From: Bacteroidota bacterium
GTDB taxonomy: Bacteria; Bacteroidota; Bacteroidia; Bacteroidales; UBA4417
NCBI GenBank assembly: GCA_013376995.1
Contig: JACAAZ010000005.1
Location: 62,001-126,000, forward strand
Length of the DNA: 64,000 bases
Reading direction: 5' to 3'
The position numbers were made by a program, and so were the translations under genes. Positions 32,181-47,719 of the stretch are shown here, piece by piece. Position 1 is the stretch's first letter; the number at the start of each line of letters is the position of its first letter. The notes beneath the pieces were generated by a model. It saw nothing but the letters and a program-made list of their open reading frames with translations, had not been told where the DNA came from and searched no databases.

Positions 32181-35100
32181 TCATTTGCCATGTGAGATCC
32201 TTACGGAACCAACTTCAACGTCTCCATTTTCAGAGTAAAGGGAGAGCCAGTTATTGTCTTCCCGGAACCACTTATCCTGAAGACTGATATTGATCACAAA
32301 ATCAGTCAGCAGTCCACCTTCAATGTTCTTAATTACTATACCACCATTTTTGAGCTTATCAACCCCGTAATTCAGGTAGAGTTTGGGTTGCACATCACCT
32401 GAAGTCCTGGCCCTGATCAGCAGGTAATTGTTCTTTCGCTGATTTACAGCAACCGGTTTGAACCCGAAACGTTTTTCAGTATCACTTTTAAGTATGAAAT
32501 TATCCGAATTAACTACGACCATGGCATTGTCTATCATAAACTTACGGATCCTGGCGATCATTTGTCCCGGGTAAATTTCACCTGGTTTAATTTTTAGTGC
32601 TTTTGCATAAGCAGCCAATGCCAGATCGAAGGTTCCTGCTCCGTAGGCATAATCGGCCTCTGAAACAGCCAGGTCATAAGCTGCTTTTTCATTCCGGGCA
32701 GTAGAAATAAGAATGGCTGCAATTTCATCTGCTTTATTCCTGGGATATGATTCTTCAGGTTTTATTGAAGAAGCCCTTTGGTATTGTTTCTGAGCTTCAG
32801 GCAGGTCATTCCCTTCTTTGAAAAGTGCATCCGCCTGATTCAGATAACCAAGGTACTGATTATCTCTTTGTTCCTTATCCAGGGCGATAATCCTGTTAAT
32901 CTCTCCAATTCTTTGCGAAGGATATGGGTCATCCGGATTCAGTTTGCCTGCCCTGTCAAATTCATTTATAGCTATTGTATAATTCTTTGCGGCATAAGCC
33001 TTTTCAGCAGTCATTACCACTTTCTTATACTCTTCCTGCTTTTCTTTTAAATCAGCTATAAGCTTGTTTATCTCTGACAGCCTTTCTTTAGGATATGTTT
33101 TTTCGGGAAGCAAACCTGCAACATTTTTATATTCCCTTGCTGCAGAAACATAGTCTTTTTCCTCTGCAGCCTGATCTGCTTTAGCAATTGATTCTTCATA
33201 ACGTGAATTCAATGCCGACTTCTTGCCCAAAGCAACTTGCAGGGCTGCTAAACGTTGTTTCGGATAAAGTGCATCCGGTGCAGATTCAAGAGCTTCCTTA
33301 TATTTTAATTCAGCTTTTATTAGCTCATTCGCATCAAAAGCAACATCTGCTTCCTTGATTACTCGTTTATATAGATCCTCTTTTTTTTTTGCCTGGCCTG
33401 AAATAGAGTTGATAAGGGCAATTCTCTCTTTTGGATAGGATTCTGCCGGACGGATATCCAATGCTTGTTTGTATCCCTGAAGGGCTTCCTTTAGTTTTTT
33501 TGAGTCAAAGGAATGATCAGCTGCAGTGATCAGCTTTGTATAACTATCAGATAGCTGATTATTCGACACATTTTTAGTGCTCAATGATTTAATTTTTTCA
33601 TTCGCATATTTATCGCCCGGCTTGTATTTCAATGCAGCTTTGAAACCATTTGTTGCAGCAGCATTGTTGTTATCCGCAAGCGATTTTTCTGCAAAGTCAA
33701 TCGCATCTTTATACTTAATTTCATTAATAGATGGCTCTATCTTAGATGCCGGTTTCTTCGCTTGTTTTTCTACCTGCAACTTTGATTGCATTTTCAAATC
33801 AGTAGCAGCTGGTGAATTTGTTTTATCCGCAATTTCGACAAGTTTCAATTCCTTTGCATCTGCCGGATGGTTTGTTTTTTCCGGCTCCGCCTCAGCTTCA
33901 GTTGCTGTTTTTCTTGAATCAGCTTGTTTTGAGTTTACAGTTTTACCTGCTAATAAATCTTCTTTGCCGGATACTTTTTTATTACTTTTTTCCGGAGCAA
34001 GGTTGGGCTGTACTGTTTTTTCGGGTTTACTGTTCTCTTTTTGGGAATTGGCAGCAACAGTGCCTTGTGTTGCCATCAGCCTGGAAACCTCTTCAATTTT
34101 ATTTTTCGGATAACTTTCTTCAGGCCTTAATATCAGGGCATATTTATATTCTGATAAAGCTTTTGAATAATTGTACGCTTCCATCGAGATGTCACCATTC
34201 GAAATTGCAAGCTGATAAGCTTTGCGAGTGTTTGCACTCGTTGTGATGGTTGAAGAAAGTTCTCTAACTCTCGAAGTGACATAATCATCCCCGGGTTGCA
34301 TTGAAAGGCATCTTTGATAACCAATCATGGCAGCTTCTGAGTTTCCCGCAAGTGAAAGATAATCAGCATTCTGTACTTCAGCATCGTAATTTTTAACCAG
34401 AATATTGTCCTGGAACCTGGGATTTCCCAGCCTCTTGGCCATTGTTTTCGGATACTGACCATCCGGGTTAATACTAAGGGCCTGCTGGAAATAGATGTAA
34501 GCATTTTCATAGTCTTTAATCTTATAGAACCTGCTTGCAATATTCACCAGCGTATCGTATTGTAAAACACCACCGGACTGGTATCTTAGCAATTGATCGA
34601 TCATGTAAATCCTGGCAGCCGGATAAGGCTTCTCAGGGTGTATTTCAAGTGCCTTTGAATAGGAAGAACGTGCGTCGGACCATTTTTTTTGATCCATCTG
34701 GAAGTCCGCATCAACAATCTGTTTATCATAAGCATCCATTGAAGAGTATGCTTTTGTTTTTTCAGCCTGAATGTCTTCAATCCTTTTATTTATCCATATT
34801 TCAGTGGGCTTCATCAGAAGTGCCTGCCTGTAGAAACCGATTGACCTGTCATACTTTTTCTTGTCGAAGGATTTCAATGCATGGGTGATAACAATCCTGT
34901 ATCTTTTATCATTGGCTGGATCGTCGAAACTGGCCATGATCCGGATCAGCTGATCCTTAGGATATTGTTCATCCGGATGCAGGCGAAGCGCAAGATAATA
35001 TTCAATATTTGCCTTTGAGTAGTTTTTTTGCTCGAATAAGCTATCACCTAGGTGAACAGCACTTTTGTAGAGGATGTTTTTAGTTTCTGTATTTTCGAGT

Positions 35101-35354
35101 GTTTTATAGATCTGTTCCAGTTTTTTCTCAGTATATACCTGTCGGGGATATAAATCCCAGGCATTTTCATATTCGAGGATAGCGTGAAGATAATCACCTT
35201 TTTGTAGAAGGTTATCTGCAGATTTTAAAGTAGAAGTATATTCGGTATTCGAAAATGGAACTTTCTGTTGTTGAGCCTGAACCTTCAAAAATGCAAAAAG
35301 CAGGAGAATGAAAAATAGACTCCTGCATGCCCGGTATACGATTCCTGTTCTCAT
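32181..35354 (-). CDS. Giant TPR protein of the cytochrome cluster, exported
   Basis: With the start at 35354 the 1057-residue protein begins with a signal peptide MRTGIVYRACRSLFFILLLFAFLKVQA. It contains about 14 TPR-type repeats of roughly 60-75 residues, each ending with the motif P..xYPkxrI (for example PEESYPKNKI, PAESYPKERI, PDDPYPSQRI), and a Lys/Glu/Ala-rich linker near the middle. A beta-rich C-terminal domain of about 130 residues follows. It is the last gene of the cluster operon. TPR arrays usually scaffold protein complexes, so a role in assembling the cytochrome complex is plausible. A longer open frame to 35510 would overlap the 9-heme gene and lacks a clean start. Confidence 0.8.
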   Translation of the reverse strand: MRTGIVYRACRSLFFILLLFAFLKVQAQQQKVPFSNTEYTSTLKSADNLLQKGDYLHAILEYENAWDLYPRQVYTEKKLEQIYKTLENTETKNILYKSAVHLGDSLFEQKNYSKANIEYYLALRLHPDEQYPKDQLIRIMASFDDPANDKRYRIVITHALKSFDKKKYDRSIGFYRQALLMKPTEIWINKRIEDIQAEKTKAYSSMDAYDKQIVDADFQMDQKKWSDARSSYSKALEIHPEKPYPAARIYMIDQLLRYQSGGVLQYDTLVNIASRFYKIKDYENAYIYFQQALSINPDGQYPKTMAKRLGNPRFQDNILVKNYDAEVQNADYLSLAGNSEAAMIGYQRCLSMQPGDDYVTSRVRELSSTITTSANTRKAYQLAISNGDISMEAYNYSKALSEYKYALILRPEESYPKNKIEEVSRLMATQGTVAANSQKENSKPEKTVQPNLAPEKSNKKVSGKEDLLAGKTVNSKQADSRKTATEAEAEPEKTNHPADAKELKLVEIADKTNSPAATDLKMQSKLQVEKQAKKPASKIEPSINEIKYKDAIDFAEKSLADNNNAAATNGFKAALKYKPGDKYANEKIKSLSTKNVSNNQLSDSYTKLITAADHSFDSKKLKEALQGYKQALDIRPAESYPKERIALINSISGQAKKKEDLYKRVIKEADVAFDANELIKAELKYKEALESAPDALYPKQRLAALQVALGKKSALNSRYEESIAKADQAAEEKDYVSAAREYKNVAGLLPEKTYPKERLSEINKLIADLKEKQEEYKKVVMTAEKAYAAKNYTIAINEFDRAGKLNPDDPYPSQRIGEINRIIALDKEQRDNQYLGYLNQADALFKEGNDLPEAQKQYQRASSIKPEESYPRNKADEIAAILISTARNEKAAYDLAVSEADYAYGAGTFDLALAAYAKALKIKPGEIYPGQMIARIRKFMIDNAMVVVNSDNFILKSDTEKRFGFKPVAVNQRKNNYLLIRARTSGDVQPKLYLNYGVDKLKNGGIVIKNIEGGLLTDFVINISLQDKWFREDNNWLSLYSENGDVEVGSVRISHGK

Positions 35355-35415
35355 GGAACATCTGCTAAACATCAGGTACATATTACTTTCATGAGATTCA
35401 GTGTTGAATTGGGAA

Positions 35416-36345
35416 CTATCGGGCGTAGACCTTCTTTGAGTGACAGCCTGGAAAACAACTGCCGCCTTCTTCAGAAGATAAATAATTGATAGGCAGTTCC
35501 CATTCTCCATAGGGAATCTTGTCTTTAATCAGGTGTGGGTTGTTGGAGGCATGTACATCGTGACACATCACACAGGATCTGCCTTTTTTGGTATTCATAT
35601 GCACAAAATGTAGGTTTTTATCCCCATTCCTGAAGTTCGTTGCCGTTGTGGTCGTCGATACTTCCAGAAGATCACTGTCATGGCATTCCCAGCAAAGAGC
35701 AAATGTATCCCTGACAGCCGCTGCATACATACCCTTGGGGAATGCACATATGAGCAGGTAGTTGTTTTGCGAACCATGAGGCTGGTGACAAACCACACAT
35801 CCAGCTTTCTCGACGGGTGGATGGATAACCTTGCTATTGGCAAGAAGTTTCTTAATATTTATGGCAAGTTTGCCATCGCTTTTTATGTCCTTGTTATGGC
35901 AACTGCTGCACAATTTCTTTTGTGCAGAAACAAGGAGTTTCTTTTCATCTGAAGAGTGAGGTGAATGGCAGTTTGAACATTTGTTATCCATAGTTACAGC
36001 CATATGTAAATTCCGGAGAGTGTCAAGGTCTTGTTTTATATCATCATGGCATGAATAGCAAAGCTGTGGCACCTCCTTAATCAGATTTAATCCCCTTGCC
36101 CCATTTTTCGTGTGTTCAATTATATTTACCTGGTGACAATTACTGCATGATTCAGCTGCAGGAGCGTGTTGAAGGGTGCTTTCAACCAAATCGCTATGGC
36201 AATCCATGCATTTTGGTTCCTCTTTTGTCTCATATCCCTGTAAATAAGGTCGACTATTGGATTCCGTCCTAACTACCTGCTGATCCAATAGCAGCAGCAA
36301 GGAGAAAAACGGAATGAATGAATATAAAATCAGGGATACCTTCAT
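35416..36345 (-). CDS. Nine-heme c-type cytochrome (eight CXXCH plus one CX3CH)
   Basis: The 309-residue exported protein has a signal peptide MKVSLILYSFIPFFSLLLLL. It carries eight CXXCH motifs (CMDCH, CSNCH, CYSCH, CSNCH, CSSCH, CVVCH, CWECH, CVMCH) and a final CFPGCH, a CX3CH variant. It is 2 bases downstream of the beta-barrel gene and probably coupled to it. Periplasmic or outer-membrane electron carrier is the likely role. No known family name can be assigned confidently. Confidence 0.9.
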   Translation of the reverse strand: MKVSLILYSFIPFFSLLLLLDQQVVRTESNSRPYLQGYETKEEPKCMDCHSDLVESTLQHAPAAESCSNCHQVNIIEHTKNGARGLNLIKEVPQLCYSCHDDIKQDLDTLRNLHMAVTMDNKCSNCHSPHSSDEKKLLVSAQKKLCSSCHNKDIKSDGKLAINIKKLLANSKVIHPPVEKAGCVVCHQPHGSQNNYLLICAFPKGMYAAAVRDTFALCWECHDSDLLEVSTTTTATNFRNGDKNLHFVHMNTKKGRSCVMCHDVHASNNPHLIKDKIPYGEWELPINYLSSEEGGSCFPGCHSKKVYAR

Positions 36346-36347
36346 GT

Positions 36348-38312
36348 TTAAAATTTTCTTACAATTTTGAAATAGGTTCCTTTGAAATTAATCTTCTCTC
36401 CGACATAATTTCTTCTGTATAGCTCAAACCCAACTGAGAGATTGAGTCGGTTAATTGTAGAAGTAATCTCAGCCTTGGAAGTCAGCAGGTCAAGATCAAT
36501 TCCACGGCCTGTTTGCTTGCGGTACATCAGGTCAAAATTCAGGTTTGTCTGACGTAAGATGTTATAGGTGAGTTTTCCTGTAATATCTGAGTATTTCTGA
36601 TTCCTGGATGACGTATCACTCAACATCGTATAGTCCTGGAAGTTACCATTGAGCATCAGCATGACTTTCATTCCGAGGGATTTTTGGAAATTCAGGTAAT
36701 ACCTGCTCATCCTGTAAGGTAAGATAGTGCTCTTGTAATCTTCATATTCAGCACCTGCACTTATAAATTTGTATTCTACCCGGCAACCCAGGACATGCTG
36801 GGTGTAGTAGTTCAGGGTTATGAATTCGGTACTTTCGAGGTTGAAATAATCCTGGGTGGAAAAGCGGTACGAAAAAGATAAGAGGTTATTAAACAGGTAT
36901 AAATTGGCCGATAGGACATGAGCATTTGCATTGTATTGATATTTGCCAGGTTGATTTGCCTGATAATCTATCAATACTGCCACATCATTATTAATAGAAC
37001 CTCCAGGTATCCGCCTGATTTCAAAGTACCTTCCCCTATCAATCAGGATGTAGTCAACTCCTGCCTGGTAAATTAAAGTCCCGGTAATATCTTTAACTAT
37101 TATGGATGAAAGTTCTATATCTGGTAATCGAAGTAAGGTGATTTTTGAATCAGAAAGTGTATATTGCTCATTGCTGATTTGCAGCGAGACTGGATCAGAA
37201 CTGTATTTCTGATGGTACCTGTCATATTTGTATGCGATTAACAGTTGTCCACCCGGAATTGCTTTTGTATAATTGAATTCAACACCGGTTTTGGTATTGC
37301 TCTCACCATATACGCTATGATTGATGGAATTAAAATCAATATTTAACCTGGATTGAAGGCTTTTGAACAATTGGTGAGCCAGGCTGGTACTTACTGAATT
37401 TTGATTCAGTGTATAGGAATTCTGATGGATGTTGTAATAATTGTAATTACCATTAAACGAAAGGGAAAAGGGGAGAAGAAGGGTGATATTTTCGGATGCC
37501 TGCACCCGTTTCATATTCAGATTTCCTTGTTGGATATAGTCTGAAATCATCGTTGTTAGCTTATATTTCTGACCGGCGTCGAGGTTAATATAACTTACCA
37601 GGTCAAGATTGTCAGTCCTGTTGGTAATGCTTAATTGATTCTGGTTGATGCTCACTGTATTATCGTGAGAGAAACTTAGCTCATTCCTGTCCCTTTTGCT
37701 GAAGGACTTGCTGGCGCGTCCAACAAATTGCTTCTGATCCATCTTATAAGTTCGGCTGTTTTCAATTTCCTCTTCTTCCCATTTTTTATTATGAAACTCA
37801 ACCGTAAAGGGAAGAATCTTGTTGTTGTACCCGAAAGCAGCTCCCCAGCGCTTATCTGTTGATCGTATGCTTGTAAGGTTTTCCCTGGATGAATAACTTT
37901 GATCGTAATTGCCAAACAGGTTGAGGGATACATCTTTATGTTTGAAAAATGAAGCAGTGATTCCACCAAGCTTTTTCAGAGTACTAATTTCGGATTGGTC
38001 AGGTATAACGAGATAGTTGTCGCGCCTGGTTTCAGGGACATAACCTGCATCAATATTCAGGGTTAAAAAATTTGGATGCAGGATGGTAGATTGGGTTCTC
38101 AGGATTAAGCCACCGGAGAGATAGGAGCTTTTCAGGTATTCGTCTATTCCTGAACCAATTCTTTGCATCTCCCTGTAATGGCCATCTGCGTCAACTTCCC
38201 CGTTTATAGAGTTCAATCTCCAGCCATACATCTTTGAGTCATTCTGAGAAATGGCATGTAATGACATCCCCAGTATGACAAATAGAAGCAGAATATAGGT
38301 TATTGTTCTCAA
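36348..38312 (-). CDS. Outer-membrane beta-barrel, candidate porin of a porin-cytochrome conduit
   Basis: The 654-residue product has a signal peptide MRTITYILLLFVILGMSLHA and a long region of alternating hydrophobic and polar residues rich in Tyr, Asn and Ser with strand-like pairs, ending in the C-terminal Phe typical of barrels (FKIVRKF). There is no heme motif. It lies between multiheme cytochrome genes, 7 bases from the 5-heme lipoprotein, as MtrB- and OmbB-type porins do in porin-cytochrome complexes of other phyla. Sequence similarity to MtrB was not tested, so the homology is inference. Confidence 0.72.
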   Translation of the reverse strand: MRTITYILLLFVILGMSLHAISQNDSKMYGWRLNSINGEVDADGHYREMQRIGSGIDEYLKSSYLSGGLILRTQSTILHPNFLTLNIDAGYVPETRRDNYLVIPDQSEISTLKKLGGITASFFKHKDVSLNLFGNYDQSYSSRENLTSIRSTDKRWGAAFGYNNKILPFTVEFHNKKWEEEEIENSRTYKMDQKQFVGRASKSFSKRDRNELSFSHDNTVSINQNQLSITNRTDNLDLVSYINLDAGQKYKLTTMISDYIQQGNLNMKRVQASENITLLLPFSLSFNGNYNYYNIHQNSYTLNQNSVSTSLAHQLFKSLQSRLNIDFNSINHSVYGESNTKTGVEFNYTKAIPGGQLLIAYKYDRYHQKYSSDPVSLQISNEQYTLSDSKITLLRLPDIELSSIIVKDITGTLIYQAGVDYILIDRGRYFEIRRIPGGSINNDVAVLIDYQANQPGKYQYNANAHVLSANLYLFNNLLSFSYRFSTQDYFNLESTEFITLNYYTQHVLGCRVEYKFISAGAEYEDYKSTILPYRMSRYYLNFQKSLGMKVMLMLNGNFQDYTMLSDTSSRNQKYSDITGKLTYNILRQTNLNFDLMYRKQTGRGIDLDLLTSKAEITSTINRLNLSVGFELYRRNYVGEKINFKGTYFKIVRKF

Positions 38313-38319
38313 AGCTGAT

Positions 38320-38919
38320 TCATCTAGTAAGATTCAAATTTTCTCCGCCATGTGGATTGTGACATTCAGTGCAATTCTCATCTTTATTTTGCCTGTGAGG
38401 TTCCAGTAAGCTAAGGCTCTCATCATCATGGCAGTGTGTGCAAAGTTTCTGGCCTGTCCGGATGAGCAGATTTGCATTTGGGGAGGTGTGTGTATTGTGA
38501 CACATTGTGCATTGCCCTCCGCCAACCGGGCCATGCAGAAAAGTATACTTTTTACCGAAGTCCTCATGGCAGTCATAACATAGCTCGGGCATTGATTTTA
38601 TGAGCTTCCCCATGCTGCCAGGGTCATGACACGCATTGCATTGTTTATCCTGATATGGAGTATGTGTGAATGTCTTTGGGCCTGCATCCTTTAAATGGTT
38701 CAGGGCTAAAAGCGTCGAATCCTTGCCTATAATGGAATCATTTAAATGAGATAGATCCTTTTTATCAGGATCTGGAACCCCATCGAAGAAAAATGAGAGG
38801 ACTTTATAATGTTTTACCGATGAGCATCCGGAAAAGTAAAACAGGAACAATACTCCAAGCAGAAGTAAGCAGAACTTCTTTATTGCTTTCAACCTTCGCC
38901 TGGAAAAATTGTCAAGCAT
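38320..38919 (-). CDS. Five-heme c-type cytochrome lipoprotein
   Basis: The 199-residue protein has a lipobox YFSGCSS near residue 30, indicating lipid anchoring. It contains five CXXCH motifs: CNACH, CYDCH, CTMCH, CTHCH and CTECH. CxxCHxxHT and NPHG-like surroundings are typical of multiheme electron carriers with bis-His ligation. It could reside inside or at the mouth of the beta-barrel encoded next. It is 26 bases downstream of the NHL lipoprotein gene. Confidence 0.9.
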   Translation of the reverse strand: MLDNFSRRRLKAIKKFCLLLLGVLFLFYFSGCSSVKHYKVLSFFFDGVPDPDKKDLSHLNDSIIGKDSTLLALNHLKDAGPKTFTHTPYQDKQCNACHDPGSMGKLIKSMPELCYDCHEDFGKKYTFLHGPVGGGQCTMCHNTHTSPNANLLIRTGQKLCTHCHDDESLSLLEPHRQNKDENCTECHNPHGGENLNLTR

Positions 38920-38945: not shown

Positions 38946-40076
38946 CTAGTTAAACATGGGGCCGGTTTTAAGCGACTTATTCTTCTTTCCGGTTTTTGAA
39001 GTTTTCTTATTGGTTTTTTGTGGCTCCACAGCACCGTAGATGTTGATTTTATCCGGGCCAAACTGGTTAGTTACATAAATCAGGTATTTCAACTTAAATC
39101 CCGGGTCAACATATTTCTCCAGGTATTTCATGTTATCATAATCTAAAATAACTTTGGCGGGTAACCACATGTCACCAGGACCTTTATAGCTTCCGCCGAA
39201 GAACATCAAAAGCTCTCCTTGCTTGCTAAATATTTGCGTGTTTTCAAATCCTGCATCAACTACGAACAAGTTGGATTCATTGTCGACGGCAATGCCTTTC
39301 GGGCGGACAAACTGTCCTAATCCCTGTCCGTAGGAACCAATAGATCGTTTGTATACACCTTCCTGCGAATAGATTTTAATCTTGAAATCTCCAAAATCTG
39401 TAACATAGACATTGCTGTCAGTCACAAAGATGTTGGTGGGAGAGAATAGACAGCCTTCAACTGATTTGTCAACTTCAGGAAATGAATTCAAGAGGGAATA
39501 GGAGGTGTCGTTGCTGAAAACATTAACCTGGTGTCCTGCAATATTTGAAACCCATATCTTACCGTTATTAACAAAAACATCAGTGGGTTTAAAATTTTCT
39601 CCTTCACCGAAACTGGACATGTATTTCAGGTTTTCGTCAAAAATGACAATTTGTTTTCTCTCTGCATCAGCTACGTAGAGATACCCTTGTGAATCGATAA
39701 AGCAATTTATTGGGACTTTCAACTCACCTCTGCCGGAAGGGATAAATTGCTGAAAGGAGTTTTTCTGCATATCGATAATATCCAACCCATGTATACGGGT
39801 ATCACACACGTACATTTTGCCTTTAGTTGCAGCAATTCCATATGGTTTGTTAACTGGGATATCTTCTTTCTCACCAAGTATAAAGGTTGAGAACGATTTC
39901 CTGTTTCCTGTAACATCGCGTGAACTGCTGATATGTGTAAGGAACTGGATCCTGGCAGTATCAGGAGGGGAAGGATAAATGACCAGGTTGTCGGTAGCAG
40001 GATCTTGATAAATGGATCTGGCACAAGATACAAGCAGGGCAGTGACCAAAGCAAGGAGTAGAAAGCGAAGCGCCAT
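38946..40076 (-). CDS. NHL-repeat beta-propeller lipoprotein
   Basis: The 376-residue lipoprotein (lipobox LLVSCARS) contains repeated propeller blades: GIAATKGKMYVCDTR, CFIDSQGYLYVADAERKQI, GQFVRPKGIAVDNESNLFVVDAGF and others. NHL proteins are encoded beside OmcS- and OmcE-type nanowire cytochromes in Geobacter. It heads the operon that includes the 5-heme, porin, 9-heme and TPR genes. It is paralogous to the protein at 45897-46934. Confidence 0.85.
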   Translation of the reverse strand: MALRFLLLALVTALLVSCARSIYQDPATDNLVIYPSPPDTARIQFLTHISSSRDVTGNRKSFSTFILGEKEDIPVNKPYGIAATKGKMYVCDTRIHGLDIIDMQKNSFQQFIPSGRGELKVPINCFIDSQGYLYVADAERKQIVIFDENLKYMSSFGEGENFKPTDVFVNNGKIWVSNIAGHQVNVFSNDTSYSLLNSFPEVDKSVEGCLFSPTNIFVTDSNVYVTDFGDFKIKIYSQEGVYKRSIGSYGQGLGQFVRPKGIAVDNESNLFVVDAGFENTQIFSKQGELLMFFGGSYKGPGDMWLPAKVILDYDNMKYLEKYVDPGFKLKYLIYVTNQFGPDKINIYGAVEPQKTNKKTSKTGKKNKSLKTGPMFN

Positions 40077-40231: not shown

Positions 40232-40852
40232 TTACTTGTTATGACAAGTCAAACACAGGGCACTAGCTGAATTAGATTTCAGTAAAAGGCCATTGATACC
40301 GGCACTGTTGTGTACATCATGGCAGGAAGAACACTGCATTTTGCCACCAATCAACATGGTGTTGGTAATTGTTCCACCTAAACCTGACTGAGTGGTAGTA
40401 GGGTTGAACAAACCTCCATCAGCTGCAGCTAAAGCAGCATCATAGGTGATAGAGATCGGGTGATCGTTGCTAAGGTCGGTGCCCATCAAAGCACCACCTG
40501 TCATAAGGTGCGTGCCAGTAGTTACCCCTCCGAAATTTTCGAGTGCAACTGTACCATCATGGCAACTGAGGCAGAGTTTGGAACTTCCATCTGGCTGACC
40601 CGCTGTTGAATTCATGGTAGCCGAGGTGTACATGGTGTAAGATGCAACATTTGAAAGGCCGTGGTTCCACAGAGGTGCATTCAGTACACTCGTGTTTGCG
40701 TTGTGAGGCGTATGGCAAACAACGCAGATTTCAGTAGTTGTGTTCCAGCTTTGACCTGAGAAGTCGTGCGATGAACCAGTAATTTGTGAGTATCCAAATT
40801 TCGAGGATACAAGAATAATTGAGATAAATAGTAGCAGTCTAAGTTTCTTCAT
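40232..40852 (-). CDS. OmcE-like tetraheme cytochrome, candidate nanowire subunit
   Basis: The 206-residue exported protein (signal peptide ends near YSQ) has four CXXCH motifs: CVVCH (43-47), CLSCH (94-98), CSSCH (174-178) and CLTCH (200-204) at the extreme C-terminus. The arrangement HDFSGQSW, CVVCHTPHN, LWNHG, CLSCHDGTVAL, NDHP, CSSCHDVHN and a terminal CLTCHNK matches the layout I recall for Geobacter OmcE, the subunit of an extracellular cytochrome filament. The same length and four hemes are seen. The gene stands alone between a sigma-54-like promoter upstream and a terminator downstream. Filament formation is inferred, not shown. Confidence 0.8.
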   Translation of the reverse strand: MKKLRLLLFISIILVSSKFGYSQITGSSHDFSGQSWNTTTEICVVCHTPHNANTSVLNAPLWNHGLSNVASYTMYTSATMNSTAGQPDGSSKLCLSCHDGTVALENFGGVTTGTHLMTGGALMGTDLSNDHPISITYDAALAAADGGLFNPTTTQSGLGGTITNTMLIGGKMQCSSCHDVHNSAGINGLLLKSNSASALCLTCHNK

Positions 40853-40894: not shown

Positions 40895-40911
40895 GTCAAA
40901 GTTTATGCCAA
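40895..40911 (-). promoter_or_regulatory. Sigma-54-like promoter of the OmcE-like gene
   Basis: On the minus strand TTGGCATAAACTTTGAC resembles TTGGCACRN4TTGCT: the -24 TTGGCA is complete, the -12 has TTGA in place of TTGC. It lies about 43 bases upstream of the ATG. An NtrC-type activator is encoded nearby. Confidence 0.45.
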
Positions 40912-41256: not shown

Positions 41257-41295
41257 TGGGTGAAATAACCCAAGGTAGGTGGGTTATATAACCCA
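41257..41295. promoter_or_regulatory. Tandem palindromes, candidate enhancer for an NtrC-type regulator
   Basis: TGGGTGAAATAACCCA (41257-41272) and the perfect palindrome TGGGTTATATAACCCA (41280-41295) lie with centres 23 bases apart, about two helical turns. They are 350-400 bases upstream of the OmcE-like start and just after the regulator gene. The T-run of a terminator is absent. Confidence 0.55.
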
Positions 41296-41303
41296 GGTCT
41301 AAA

Positions 41304-42722
<1,419 letters not shown>

Positions 42723-42753: not shown

Positions 42754-44199
42754 TTATGCGGGTAGTAAAATAAAAAAAGTGCAACCTCCATTCTCTCCGT
42801 TTTCATACCAGATTTCACCATTATGTTTATCAATAATATCCTTTGTGATAGCAAGCCCTAACCCGGTTCCCTTTGTCCGGGTTGTATAAAACGGTTTAAA
42901 GATCTCTGAGCCAACTTCAGGAGGTATCCCTATGCCATTGTCAGCAACCGAAATTAATATCTTATGCGATTGATCCTGGTACTGACTGGTAAAATGAATT
43001 TCGCCGGTTTCCTTGCAAGCCTCTATTGCGTTGAAACTTAGGTTGAGTAAAACATTCTCAATTAGCTCATGGTCAAATTGGATTTCCGGGATTGATTCCT
43101 GCAAGTTCATTTCAAATGTAATTGATTTCTCATGAGCCTGGTTTCGAAGGAAAAACACCAACGACTGGATGAGTCCATTAATACTGCCGCTTTCAAGCAC
43201 CAGGTCTTTTGATCGCGAGTATTTTAGTAAGTTGGAGATAGCCTGGTTTACACGGTTGGCCTGGCGCTGTATTTCTTCCAAAATTGGCTTGTTGCCTGAA
43301 TCCTGTGCTTCCGAAACGATTACCTCAAGGGCCCTTGAAATGCCGGTAAGCGGGTTCCTTATTTCATGTGCAATACGGGCAGACATTTCTCCGATCGTTG
43401 CAAGCTTTTGCGAATTCTGCAATTCCTTTTGATGGTACACCTGGAGTTCTTTCTGAGTGCGGTCAAAAGTCGCCAGCATCTCGTTAAAATCTTTTCCTAA
43501 TTTACCCAGTTCTCTCACTTCCGGAATCACAAGCCTGGTTTCAAGTTTACCATTGTTTACCATTGCTATGGTAGACTTGAACTGCTTCAATGACTTACGG
43601 ATGTATTTATAATGCAGGTAGGCTACAAGGATAAAGATGGATAGGAGGATCAGGATGGTGTAATAGAAACTGAATTGCTTGGTAAGGGTAATAATTCCCT
43701 GTGTTTCATCGCTGGATAGATCCATAATGATCAAACCCAGATGCTTCTGCGAAGGATTATGGCAAGAATAGCACCTCTGAGAATTTTCAAGCCGGATAAA
43801 TACCCTGTAGAAGGGTACAGGCTCTTTATGATAGGCTTTGATGGAAATATCCTTAGGCTGGCTATAAAGCTTTCGAAACATGTTTGTATCCCCTTTCAGC
43901 GAAGCATAAGCATTCGGATAAACCACCTTCGACTGTGAATTTACCAGGTAAGTTTTTAAGACATCTTTATCATTTTCAAGAATTTGGAGCATTGATTTAA
44001 TAATCCTCCCGTCGTGCTGGCTGATGGTAAAATAATACTGGTCCCTTAACAGGTTCATCTGGTTGTATACTTCTTCAGTCTGACTTATGAGTTTATCCCT
44101 CAGAAAAATATTGAAAACTGTAAAAGAGATAACAGAAAACAATGAAACCACGATCACAATAGTCCATATAATCTTTACCCGGAAACTGAATATCTTCAT
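42754..44199 (-). CDS. Sensor histidine kinase with a periplasmic c-type heme motif
   Basis: The 481-residue kinase has two transmembrane helices (about residues 9-31 and 178-196) that bracket a periplasmic domain of about 145 residues. That domain carries a CYSCH heme-c motif at 143-147 followed by NPSQKHLGLIIMD. After a HAMP-like linker the DHp histidine is in ARIAHEIRNPLTG near residue 282, and the ATP domain has NLSFNAIEAC, DNGIGIPPEV and GTGLGLAITKDI. A covalently bound heme would make it a redox or ligand sensor. It is 21 bases downstream of the 12-heme gene in one operon. Confidence 0.9.
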   Translation of the reverse strand: MKIFSFRVKIIWTIVIVVSLFSVISFTVFNIFLRDKLISQTEEVYNQMNLLRDQYYFTISQHDGRIIKSMLQILENDKDVLKTYLVNSQSKVVYPNAYASLKGDTNMFRKLYSQPKDISIKAYHKEPVPFYRVFIRLENSQRCYSCHNPSQKHLGLIIMDLSSDETQGIITLTKQFSFYYTILILLSIFILVAYLHYKYIRKSLKQFKSTIAMVNNGKLETRLVIPEVRELGKLGKDFNEMLATFDRTQKELQVYHQKELQNSQKLATIGEMSARIAHEIRNPLTGISRALEVIVSEAQDSGNKPILEEIQRQANRVNQAISNLLKYSRSKDLVLESGSINGLIQSLVFFLRNQAHEKSITFEMNLQESIPEIQFDHELIENVLLNLSFNAIEACKETGEIHFTSQYQDQSHKILISVADNGIGIPPEVGSEIFKPFYTTRTKGTGLGLAITKDIIDKHNGEIWYENGENGGCTFFILLPA

Positions 44200-44220: not shown

Positions 44221-45900
44221 TTAATAAGAATAAGGATTGTGGTTTGTTCCATGGCAGGTTAAATAGCAGCGACCTTTGTACAAGCCCTGGTCATCGAACC
44301 GCCTGATACCACCTGAACTATTGGAAACTATGGTTGTCCAGAAATTGATAAGGTTCGTGTTATTGGTACTGTTTCCCTGGGTACTGTTGATTCCATGAGG
44401 ATCATGGCAGGTGTTGCATGGTGTTTTCTCCCCGACAATGTGCTTGCTGTGTTCCTTAAAAGAAACATCCCCGATTATTGAAGTACGGTTATGGCATCCA
44501 TAGCATAAAGCATACGCAGCTGCCGATTCTGTAGTATTATCCGTTGTAGAATATTGCCTTTTAAGAATATGTGGGTAGATTGATCCATGTGGTCCAGCAG
44601 GAGAACCGGTACCATCGCTTGCATGACAATCTGTGCAATACATCCTGCTCGATGTCGTCCAGGGTGCAATCAGGCTTGGTACATTGGTATTGACCCCTGC
44701 TGCAGCTACGGAATGGTAGGAAGGATTACCCGGTGCGAATTCCATCCTGACATTATTCTGAACAATAACCCTCGGGGTAGCAGCTGCTGGAGATCCGGGG
44801 CTTCCTGCATGACATCGGTAACAGATCTCATATGAGTTAACTGCAGGATTGACAGCAACTCCATTTTGATCAATTCCTTTAACGCCAGTCAGAAAACCAT
44901 TAACAGAAGGAGCAGTGGCAGCCAGGTTTTTAGCTGCGTGAGGATTATGGCAGTCTACACATTCAACATGCATAGTTGTTACTTGTGCAGCTTCATTGGC
45001 ATCATGAACATCCAGGTAACCTGAAATATTATGTTTATATGCTTTAGCGAACTGGGCAGAAATGTTCTTAGTTGCAACGTTCCCGTTATGACAATTCAGG
45101 CAATTATTCTCTTCAGTCTGGTATTGCAGGAGCATTTTATTCCCGCCTGAATTGTGTGGATTGTGACAGTTTTCACATGCATTCTGAGCTACAGTTGTCC
45201 ATGGAGTATATGGCCAGGGATTTGGGGCAGTTCCATTCCAGGTCTTGATTGAAGTATTGTGACTGCTTGTTGTCCAATAAGTCCGCTGGTGGCAGCTGTT
45301 ACAAAGGTTAGAGTTTTGAGAAGTTACCCATAAAAAATCAGCATTGATGTTTTTATGAGGATCATGACAAGATGTGCATTGAACTTTTCCACTTTTCAAT
45401 GTAACAGGTGGAGGAATGGTGGATGGATTTCTCAACTGTCCATCAGCTGCTGCCAAGGCAGCATTATAGAGGAAAGAAACAGGGTGGTCATTCCTGAGAT
45501 TGGTGCCCAGGTTACTAACTCCTGAAGGCATGAAGTTTCCTGTAGCCATATTGATATTCGATGTCCTGCTGAGAACATTTCCCAGGGCTACTGTACCGTC
45601 ATGGCATGACAGGCAAAGAATAGATGTGCCGTCTGGTTGACCAGGAACAGCCTGCAGAGTAGAACTCGTATAGAGGGTATAGTTTGAACCAGGATCATTC
45701 CTGTTCCATAATGGCGCTACAGGCCTGCTGTTGTGCGGTGTATGGCAGAAAAGGCATATCTCGGTCTCACTGGTTGCCTTGACAGTTCCTGGCCCGCTGA
45801 CTGACAGATTATGCTTTGTATTAACAATGGATTGTGACGGTAATGTGGAGGGTAACCACAATATTATGAGTACACAAGAAAGTATCCTCAGTCTTTTCAT
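44221..45900 (-). CDS. Twelve-heme c-type cytochrome with an OmcE-like N-terminal module
   Basis: The 559-residue exported protein has eleven CXXCH motifs (CLFCH, CLSCH, CTSCH, CNSCH, CENCH, CLNCH, CVDCH, CYRCH, CTDCH, CYGCH, CNTCH) and a final CYLTCH of CX3CH type near the C-terminus. The first 210 residues repeat the tetraheme protein at 40232-40852: EICLFCHTPHNS, APLWNRN, CLSCHDGTVALGN, NDHPVSF and CTSCHDPH are all matched. The start overlaps the NHL gene stop by 4 bases. Periplasmic or surface electron carrier is likely. Confidence 0.92.
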   Translation of the reverse strand: MKRLRILSCVLIILWLPSTLPSQSIVNTKHNLSVSGPGTVKATSETEICLFCHTPHNSRPVAPLWNRNDPGSNYTLYTSSTLQAVPGQPDGTSILCLSCHDGTVALGNVLSRTSNINMATGNFMPSGVSNLGTNLRNDHPVSFLYNAALAAADGQLRNPSTIPPPVTLKSGKVQCTSCHDPHKNINADFLWVTSQNSNLCNSCHQRTYWTTSSHNTSIKTWNGTAPNPWPYTPWTTVAQNACENCHNPHNSGGNKMLLQYQTEENNCLNCHNGNVATKNISAQFAKAYKHNISGYLDVHDANEAAQVTTMHVECVDCHNPHAAKNLAATAPSVNGFLTGVKGIDQNGVAVNPAVNSYEICYRCHAGSPGSPAAATPRVIVQNNVRMEFAPGNPSYHSVAAAGVNTNVPSLIAPWTTSSRMYCTDCHASDGTGSPAGPHGSIYPHILKRQYSTTDNTTESAAAYALCYGCHNRTSIIGDVSFKEHSKHIVGEKTPCNTCHDPHGINSTQGNSTNNTNLINFWTTIVSNSSGGIRRFDDQGLYKGRCYLTCHGTNHNPYSY

Positions 45901-46934
45901 TTGCTTGCTGTTTGAGTAAGTTTGAATACCTGGATCCTTGAATTATAAGTATCAGCTATGTAGATGTAGTCCATTTGGTCAATGAATATGCCTGATGGCA
46001 TCCAGAATTCCGAATTCCCGCGTCCCTGGCTTCCGAATTTATAGAGAAAGGTTCCATTTGAATCAAAAACCTGAACCACATGGAAAAGGGCGTCAACTAT
46101 ATAAATATTTCCATATGAGTCAGTTGCGATTCCTTTAGGCCGGGCCAGGTAACCTGTTGCATCACCAGCTTCACCAAATGATGAAATAAATTCTCCTCCA
46201 GGTCCCAGAATTTGTATCCTGAAATTCATGGCATCATTAACGAATATTTTCCCGGTACGATCAATCCAAAGATGGGTTGGATAATTAAATTCTCCCGGAT
46301 TAATACCTCTCGACCCCAGGTGCTTCAGGAAATTTCCTTTTGCATCCAAAACAGTGATACGATGAGCCTTGGTTTCAAGAATCCATATCTCCTGGTTAAC
46401 CGAAGAATAAGCAATTCCGGTTGGTTGTTCCAAACCCAGGGAATCATTCAACACTTTGATTGACTTTTTCTTAGGCAAATATTGGTATACCTTGTCCGCG
46501 TGGGAGTCAGTAAAGAGTATTGTTGATCCCGGACCCTGGCAAATTCCTACGAGGGACGAGAGGTCGAAAGAAGTAGTTGTAAAAGGGTGGGGGATTTCAC
46601 CCACATCATCCTTGATAATAAATATTCCCCTATTCGCCTGGTCCAGCACCAGGAAATTAGAGGTATCAATTGCGGCTATACTTACTGGGGTTGTCAAAAC
46701 AGCCGGATGGATGCCAAAAACAATAGCATTAAACTGTTTTCTAAACTTTCTCGATTTTTTAGGTTTATAAGTATCAGGCCAATTCCTGATCCACTCTACA
46801 CTGAAGCGCCTTTCTTCATGTTGCTTTGATCCATCCTCAATTCCTTGCGATTGTCCTTTAATAGCTACAGATATCAAAATCATAACCAGGACAGTGCCGG
46901 TGGATATATGCGTGTATCTGGTAAAATAGGGCAT
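45897..46934 (-). CDS. NHL-repeat beta-propeller protein, second copy
   Basis: The 345-residue protein has an N-terminal hydrophobic segment (TVLVMILISVAI) that looks like a signal anchor or signal peptide. Blades such as GIATDSYGNIYIVDALFHVV, PSGIFIDQMDYIYIADTYNSRI and HLWIDRTGKIFVND are clear NHL repeats. It starts the operon containing the 12-heme cytochrome and the two-component system, and its stop codon overlaps the cytochrome start. It is related to the NHL lipoprotein at 38946-40076. Confidence 0.85.
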   Translation of the reverse strand: MPYFTRYTHISTGTVLVMILISVAIKGQSQGIEDGSKQHEERRFSVEWIRNWPDTYKPKKSRKFRKQFNAIVFGIHPAVLTTPVSIAAIDTSNFLVLDQANRGIFIIKDDVGEIPHPFTTTSFDLSSLVGICQGPGSTILFTDSHADKVYQYLPKKKSIKVLNDSLGLEQPTGIAYSSVNQEIWILETKAHRITVLDAKGNFLKHLGSRGINPGEFNYPTHLWIDRTGKIFVNDAMNFRIQILGPGGEFISSFGEAGDATGYLARPKGIATDSYGNIYIVDALFHVVQVFDSNGTFLYKFGSQGRGNSEFWMPSGIFIDQMDYIYIADTYNSRIQVFKLTQTASK

Positions 46935-47077: not shown

Positions 47078-47719
47078 CTATTGTTTCGATTTCAACTTTT
47101 GATAAACATTCATTTCCTCATTTGCTTCTGTTATTTTGCCTGATTGCTTTAGTGCATATGATAAATTGAAATGTGACTGGAGGTGGTTATAATTTGCCTG
47201 TATATTCTCCTTTAGCAGGTTAATAGCCTTATCATATTTGTTCAGCCTGATATAACAGGTAGCTAGATCACACCTGACATTGTAGTTGGATTTATCTTTT
47301 GCCAGGAACTTTTCATAATAGGGGATAGCTTCTTCATTCTGCTCAAGATCATAATTTATGTTTCCAAGGTTGAAGAGCGCTGCCATATTGTTCTTATCGA
47401 TAGTATGAACGATCAGAAAATGGTATAATGCCTTGTTGTAATCTTTATTGAGATAATAATATGCAGCCAGTTTCAGCCTTGCATCAGTATTGAGAGAATC
47501 TTTCGCAAGGATTTTTTCATAGGTAGTATGATCGTCCAGCGAAAGAGGCTGAGTTTGGATTCCTGTTGTCCGAGTCTGCTCATTGCTTGGTTTTGATGAA
47601 GTTTTATCCTGGGAACACGAGATCAGGAAGCCCAGTGTTAAACACAAGCCCAGTAGAATATATGCCGTTCTAGCTTCAATTAAGCCATAGCTTTGTTCTT
47701 TTTTTGCTTTGGAATTCAT
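47078..47719 (-). CDS. TPR lipoprotein
   Basis: The 213-residue product has a lipobox FLISCSQD near residue 36 after a hydrophobic segment. Four TPR-like units follow, for example AAYYYLNKDYNKALYHFL near residue 86, NLGNINYDLEQNEEAIPYYEKFL, YIRLNKYDKAINLLK and SYALKQSGKITEANEEMN. It lies 37 bases downstream of the OB-fold gene. It is likely a scaffold in the periplasm associated with the cytochrome cluster. Confidence 0.85.
   Translation of the reverse strand: MNSKAKKEQSYGLIEARTAYILLGLCLTLGFLISCSQDKTSSKPSNEQTRTTGIQTQPLSLDDHTTYEKILAKDSLNTDARLKLAAYYYLNKDYNKALYHFLIVHTIDKNNMAALFNLGNINYDLEQNEEAIPYYEKFLAKDKSNYNVRCDLATCYIRLNKYDKAINLLKENIQANYNHLQSHFNLSYALKQSGKITEANEEMNVYQKLKSKQ

Follow-up and report, generated by a model that had tools for sequence, protein, structure and literature searches.

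A putative OmcE-family wire subunit and a second, longer OmcE-domain protein in a Uet-like gene cluster of Bacteroidota

Described wires and conduits, and the gene cluster of the window

According to the title of Baquero et al. 2023, cytochrome nanowires reportedly appear ubiquitous in prokaryotes, and Shen et al. 2025 are said to have dealt with an assembly block for one of them, OmcS (GSU2493-2500). By its description that block is, like the gene set considered here, a conserved set of genes beside a wire cytochrome; the wire-forming ability of OmcS-like proteins is stated to be hard to infer from homology (PMC12977616). In the OmcE nanowire of Geobacter sulfurreducens the interfacial haem 2 is ligated by a His of the neighbouring subunit (PMC12203936, PMC12954529, PMC9473688). 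The undecahaem electron transfer (Uet) cluster of Tenderiales and Gallionella is composed of a tetrahaem and an undecahaem cytochrome, two NHL units, a barrel, three trihaems (UetDEG) and the PPIase UetB, and its bearers are cathode-oxidising Tenderiales and iron-oxidising Gallionella (PMC10734462); undecahaem clusters have also been reported in relatives of Leptothrix (PMC13386937) and in a Mn-reducer (PMC13264449). Putative novel porin-cytochrome genes were reported earlier from Bacteroidetes of a humic lake (PMC6344600), and in Geoalkalibacter a locus with MtoA homologues also encodes an OmcE homologue and two proteins with NHL repeats (PMC12016550).

The window (the whole 64-kb stretch of DNA that was analysed) comes from a Bacteroidota bacterium from a lake. 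In agreement with this phylum, the corresponding locus (L005) of a genus-mate, G011, recurs without a single difference inside a contig (L025) of a MAG named 'uncultured Bacteroidales'. It encodes two proteins with an OmcE domain, here called SHORT and LONG, in a cluster whose genes all lie on the minus strand and form two sets, NHL2, LONG, sensor kinase and sigma54 activator, and, beyond a 451-base gap, SHORT, NHL1, pentahaem cytochrome, barrel-like protein and MtrA-like cytochrome. The features are, in the direction of transcription:

45897..46934, minus strand, NHL beta-propeller 2 (NHL2), sharing 4 bases with the start of LONG
44221..45900, minus strand, LONG, 559 aa, OmcE domain plus extension, proposed terminal subunit
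42754..44199, minus strand, sensor histidine kinase, its sensor part bearing a single CXXCH
41304..42722, minus strand, NtrC-type response regulator, sigma54 activator
41257..41295, minus strand, two tandem palindrome-like sites within the 451-base gap, proposed activator sites
40897..40910, minus strand, sigma54-like -24/-12 core, TGGCAY-N5-TTG, located some 45 bases upstream of the SHORT start
40232..40852, minus strand, SHORT, 206 aa, OmcE-family tetrahaem cytochrome, proposed wire subunit
38946..40076, minus strand, NHL beta-propeller 1 (NHL1), directly downstream of SHORT, with a lipoprotein-like start (by eye)
38320..38919, minus strand, pentahaem cytochrome with 5 CXXCH and a lipoprotein-like start (by eye)
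36348..38312, minus strand, outer-membrane barrel-like protein, 654 aa, the barrel being deduced from context
35416..36345, minus strand, MtrA-like multihaem cytochrome (cytA) with 8 CXXCH and one CX3CH, proposed conduit through the barrel

Among the open frames of at least 50 residues in the window only five contain CXXCH, all of them in the cluster (SHORT 4, LONG 11, kinase 1, pentahaem 5, MtrA-like 8), and 11 of the 12 paired-CXXCH matches in the whole genome fall within the SHORT locus. TPR proteins flank the cluster at both ends (32181-35510 and 47078-47719). The first-pass annotation, which was made from the letters of the DNA, had placed the tetrahaem protein beside an outer-membrane barrel, NHL propellers and other multihaem cytochromes, and these neighbours are indeed present: a barrel-like protein (its fold assigned from context), two NHL proteins and further multihaem cytochromes. 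The suggestion made there of a complete extracellular electron transfer system is supported as far as the type of the cluster is concerned, while completeness stays a suggestion. The only NapC/NirT-type candidate found in the genome lies on another contig than SHORT. This single match in the genome is a 513-aa frame with 6 CXXCH (L124:1225-2721, G000 contig C14; 499 aa from the first Met), for which the best named family was NrfH, below the cut-off. Such a NapC/NrfH-like membrane multihaem cytochrome is a possible quinol-side partner, and we take it to resemble the ImcH-type quinol oxidases.

The likeness to the MtrAB conduit lies in cytA, which matches MtrA (6r2q_A, E 2.6e-7) and adjoins the barrel-like protein; 6R2Q_A is named MtrA in the literature (PMC12203936), though the PDB sequence file labels the chain otherwise. 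Unlike that conduit, cytA combines 8 CXXCH with one CX3CH, and the barrel-like protein has no detectable PDB relative (a 12-sequence profile found nothing at E<=1 in the PDB) and no Pfam match. Relatives of the barrel-like protein adjoin SHORT in several phyla.

Like the Uet cluster, the window combines genes for a tetrahaem and an undecahaem cytochrome with those for two NHL proteins and a barrel (context-based), and the order SHORT-NHL-barrel-NHL-LONG is found in the proteobacterial loci L064, L066, L067, L068 and L078. Judged by the number of haems, the order of the genes and their neighbours, LONG is the likely counterpart of the undecahaem UetJ. The window departs from Uet in its MtrA-like and pentahaem cytochromes, in its two-component system, the sensor of which bears CXXCH, and in a conserved extra haem-like motif of LONG, CX3CH. 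Because the 64-kb window contains no trihaem frame and the scanned cluster and flank proteins include no PPIase, the system is Uet-like rather than Uet. Bacteroidota is new as a host phylum of a Uet-like gene set, and the MtrA-like cytochrome, the pentahaem lipoprotein-like protein, the CXXCH sensor kinase, the sigma54 activator and the paired palindromes are new as its parts. The link between Uet and OmcE is possibly new as well, being absent from the passages, titles and abstract openings examined; it could be in Eddie et al. 2022 or Baquero et al. 2023 and is perhaps in print already.

The sensor kinase was compared with the sensor domain PF21563 and scored below the cut-off (17.3 of 27 bits). 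Of the two palindrome-like sites, 41280-41295 is perfect and 41257-41272 imperfect, and both align, with changes, in 4 genomes. The pattern is above chance in the window (5 matches vs 0.36 expected), four of the matches being the two sites on both strands and the fifth a one-mismatch site inside NHL2; in its exact form it occurs in 10 of 124 loci, and the pair is found once in the bacterium's own 5.05-Mb genome and nowhere in the reversed control. A first scan with the sigma54 consensus gave no excess (29 matches vs 34.7 expected), and sigma54 sites called by consensus alone were rejected for that reason. The core upstream of SHORT is likewise not above chance when taken alone (one match in the window vs 1.9 expected), and its position is conserved in 4 genomes. 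The regulatory case stands because the core is conserved in place and accompanied by the paired palindromes, not because of the consensus alone. The natural reading is that the sensor kinase and the activator would act as a switch that senses haem or redox state and controls the wire.

The tetrahaem protein SHORT

The open reading frame of SHORT coincides exactly with 40232-40852 on the minus strand, while frame 1 of the plus strand is riddled with stops over this interval. The first-pass annotation had seen here four CXXCH motifs in the layout of OmcE and a fitting length, and both observations are correct: the haem motifs and the ligand His residues were found, and the protein has 206 aa with an N-terminus that looks signal-like (by eye). 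It contains HDFSG, CHTPHN, LWNH, CLSCHDGTVAL, CSSCHDVHN and a terminal CLTCHNK; the claimed motif match to OmcE is weak at LWNH, where OmcE has LWNR. In 10,000 shuffled versions of the protein, CXXCH never occurred more than once.

Sequence searches identified OmcE as a relative of SHORT (phmmer against 7tfs_A, matching over residues 8-206: E 3e-27; BLASTP: 34% identity over 229 columns). Among the PDB sequences, only OmcE 7tfs and 9yuq matched SHORT at E<=1, both near full length, the latter (9yuq_N, E 8.8e-27) being a 'putative multiheme cytochrome c' of 218 aa present as 16 chains of a single entry. The profile search that had been recommended as a check agreed: a profile of 81 SHORT sequences matched 7tfs (3.4e-50) and 9yuq (1.5e-46), and the next matches, 6r2q_A (2.5e-5) and OmcS (1.6e-4), were both weak and short. 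A PHROGs search gave no match. The AF2 model built from the 81 sequences (pLDDT 85) retrieved OmcE 7tfs as the sole match from a PDB fold library (Foldseek, E 1.1e-8; TM 0.63/0.65, rmsd 5.1). In a specificity control, the cluster cytochromes cytA and cytB matched OmcE only with E of 0.1 and 1.5, and no match to OmcE was reported for the extension of LONG. A generic similarity between paired CXXCH motifs is ruled out, because the cluster's remaining multihaem proteins fail to match OmcE; a chance run of motifs is likewise ruled out by the shuffles and the specificity control.

The alignment of SHORT (A3, 81 rows) comprises 73 of 97 candidates, the protein of the window and 7 sequences from its genus and phylum; 24 candidates, 15 with five CXXCH and 9 with four, were excluded by eye, and five CXXCH are present also in 5 of the 81 rows. 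Seven of the eight His residues expected to ligate haem are found in 81 of 81 aligned sequences and the eighth, H29, in 80 of 81, and the four CXXCH and four distal His of SHORT align with those of OmcE. In 80 of 81 sequences just two residues follow the final CXXCH, and the same holds for OmcE. Many clusters contain, in them or nearby, a further OmcE-like paralogue, 219-252 aa long and carrying five CXXCH (L023, L026, L032, L036, L044, L047, L050, L054, L055, L062), perhaps a different type of subunit.

SHORT thus shares with OmcE (7tfs) the four c-haem motifs, the eight ligand His, homology over the full length and the predicted fold, and differs from it as follows: identity is 34%, LWNH replaces LWNR, and SHORT lies off the branch of OmcE in a quick tree. 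This tree, built from 134 OmcE domains and supported by SH-aLRT only, places OmcE within an 11-row group (support 88), separate from a 75-row SHORT clade (support 95). Since OmcE and its nearest relatives are outside the main SHORT clade of this tree, to which the protein of the window belongs, 'OmcE-family member' is a safer designation for SHORT than 'orthologue'.

LONG and the recurrence of the gene set

LONG is composed of an OmcE domain (aa 1–206), 43% identical to OmcE and 43% to SHORT, and a 353-aa extension with eight further haem motifs, which begins where SHORT ends, after the fourth motif. The model of LONG (pLDDT 85.7) had OmcE as its only PDB match under E 0.001 (TMt 0.73), and the sequence profile of the extension gave short matches to 5ze8 (6e-6) and OcwA 6i5b (1e-5). 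LONG candidates were collected by HMM (46, in the best 80 of at least 496 loci); L058, with at least 20 haem motifs, was removed as spurious, and the alignment (A4) leaves out the cut or partial L032, L055 and L073 and adds the LONG of the window and 5 sequences of the same phylum, giving 48 rows. LONG of the window has 11 CXXCH and a terminal CX3CH (545-550). As 11 CXXCH are usual (42 of 48 rows, with 10 in the other 6) and the terminal CX3CH stands at a conserved place (42 of 48), LONG probably carries twelve haems, and, because the MtrA-like cytochrome and LONG each hold one CX3CH, 'undecahaem' counts based on CXXCH may undercount haems. The residue H214 is invariant (48 of 48), 10 residues past the His of the fourth motif in 46 sequences and 12 in 2. 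About 16 conserved His are candidates for the 12 distal places of LONG. Outside the signal peptide, the only stretch of the LONG model below pLDDT 50 is the CHTPHN loop (residues 55-60). Glycine runs end the LONG of three Gammaproteobacteria (L067, L068, L069).

In the quick tree the LONG domains, which come from 11 named phyla (mostly loci from the best 80 of at least 496), all lie on a single side of one branch (48 of 48, support 98), and shuffling the LONG and SHORT labels on the same tree required 39.4 changes. Such a topology fits a single origin of the LONG fusion. For SHORT, the phylum labels change 29 times on the tree, against a minimum of 16 and a shuffled mean of 44.9, which would fit movement between phyla without proving it; binning errors and paralogues could contribute.

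A scan of named genomes found at least 496 loci encoding relatives among at least 587 candidate stretches, and the best 80 of at least 496 were kept. These 80 loci represent 17 named phyla and 2 unassigned records; LONG is present in 45 of them (11 named phyla and 2 unassigned records), and the matched open frame was LONG itself in 5, the remaining 75 being matched through a short protein. Among the short-matched of these 80 loci, an NHL gene lies within 1.7 kb in 57 of the 69 with at least 1.5 kb downstream and is missing just downstream in 12. Where at least 5.9 kb was available on both sides (38 short-matched loci from the same best 80 of at least 496), LONG was found in 30, the barrel in 28, the MtrA-like cytochrome in 23 and an NHL gene in 37, with LONG, barrel and NHL together in 26; LONG was undetected in 8 of the 38, one of which, L027, ends with a cut candidate of 287 aa. 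Within the phylum of the window the family has a patchy distribution, with matches in 7 of 296 genomes, of which two are marginal. In the genus 4 of 16 genomes match, and 25 other genomes of the same order gave no match. The cassette is thus recurrent, and this, together with the homology, ligand conservation and predicted fold of SHORT and the conserved putative regulatory sites, is established.

The surroundings of close OmcE relatives were also inspected. OmcE was searched for in 297 genomes of the phylum to which the Desulfobulbaceae locus L081 belongs, and 43 of them matched. The three top relatives, from G403, G627 and G493 (60, 60 and 51% identity), resemble SHORT in having an NHL gene and a homologue of cytA (E 2e-45 to 5e-48) as neighbours, which here lie upstream of OmcE. 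The order is cytA homologue with 9-10 haem motifs, 8-haem protein, NHL protein, OmcE and a large downstream ORF of 748-787 aa, the last two being separated by a second NHL gene in L123. G403 and G627 belong to one family, which we take to be Geobacteraceae and in which 29 of 48 genomes match OmcE at E<=1e-20. SHORT is co-encoded with LONG, unlike the OmcE of G403 and G627: no LONG was found in 19.5 kb around the OmcE gene of G403, G627 or G493, and G403 and G627 have no OmcE-matching frame longer than 318 aa. That close relatives of the OmcE of the proven wire have no LONG beside them counts against a terminal-subunit role of LONG and against its being required for wires as a rule.

A predicted wire system, its alternatives and its meaning

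The comparison indicates that SHORT belongs to the OmcE family of extracellular tetrahaem cytochromes and probably polymerises into a linear haem wire within a Uet-like system. Its polymerisation and extracellular location, the nature of the barrel-like protein and what LONG and the NHL proteins do are inferred as follows. SHORT subunits would polymerise with a His of each ligating a haem of the next (haem 2 in OmcE). Electrons would cross the outer membrane via the MtrA-like cytochrome held in the barrel (35416-38312), assisted by the pentahaem lipoprotein-like cytochrome, and pass through LONG onto the SHORT wire outside the cell; the NHL propellers may serve as surface assembly or docking partners of both OmcE-domain proteins, and the CXXCH-bearing sensor kinase and the sigma54 activator would turn the SHORT operon on. 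More tentatively, LONG may be a dedicated terminal subunit, the OmcE domain of which would join the end of the SHORT polymer, while the extension would shut the other interface; LONG would then wire the filament to the outer-membrane conduit or form a discharge tip. The invariant His214 perhaps substitutes for the ligand otherwise given by the next subunit.

Electron flow is probably outward, to Fe(III) or humics; its direction is not readable from sequence. We regard it as rather unlikely that the cluster takes electrons up (Fe(II) or cathode oxidation) and reduces no extracellular acceptor, for among the best 80 of at least 496 loci the carriers include Ignavibacteriota, Calditrichota and Desulfobulbaceae, which are usually regarded as anaerobic. 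Undecahaems occur in a Mn-reducer too (PMC13264449), although uptake is what has been proposed for Uet, with its cathode-oxidising Tenderiales and iron-oxidising Gallionella (PMC10734462).

It also seems unlikely that SHORT, whether soluble or attached to the surface, works as an extracellular tetrahaem cytochrome that relays electrons singly, without polymerising. Such a role would agree with UetA, described in the available text as an extracellular tetrahaem cytochrome only (PMC10734462), but SHORT has kept all the ligand His of OmcE, one of which is donated in trans in the OmcE wire (PMC12203936). Moreover, the CHTPHN loop (residues 50-52) is the only stretch of the SHORT model below pLDDT 50 outside the signal peptide, which fits, and does not prove, an arm that would be positioned only in the neighbouring subunit.

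Finally, that LONG is the functional counterpart of OmcE and SHORT an accessory paralogue is improbable: the LONG domain is nearer to OmcE than SHORT is (43 vs 34% identity, TMt 0.73 vs 0.65), which as a comparison of sequences counts against our preferred reading, and in the family of G403 open frames of at least 550 aa (of unassigned LONG status) match in 14 of the 29 genomes with a match, 8 of these 14 lacking a short match at E<=1e-20, but OmcE is short and ends two residues past its last CXXCH as SHORT does, just where the extension of LONG starts, and it lies outside the LONG clade (support 98) in the quick tree.

With SHORT as the proposed wire subunit, the finding of an OmcE-family member in Bacteroidota is by itself not very surprising. 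LONG, the Uet likeness of the gene set and its wide spread go beyond the first-pass annotation, and the interest centres on LONG paired with SHORT and on the end-piece hypothesis. How cytochrome wires are joined, started and ended at the cell surface looks like an open question; the 2022 OmcZ paper says in the legend of one figure that possible tip proteins were left aside (PMC9473688). LONG provides a concrete candidate for an end piece, i.e. a wire subunit with eight more haem motifs, kept near the wire gene across phyla. If this is true, the 'porin-cytochrome complex' of Uet would be a nanowire base-and-export machine across many phyla, and the scattered 'undecahaem' clusters, among them those of Bacteroidota, Verrucomicrobiota and Calditrichota, would become predicted nanowire systems.
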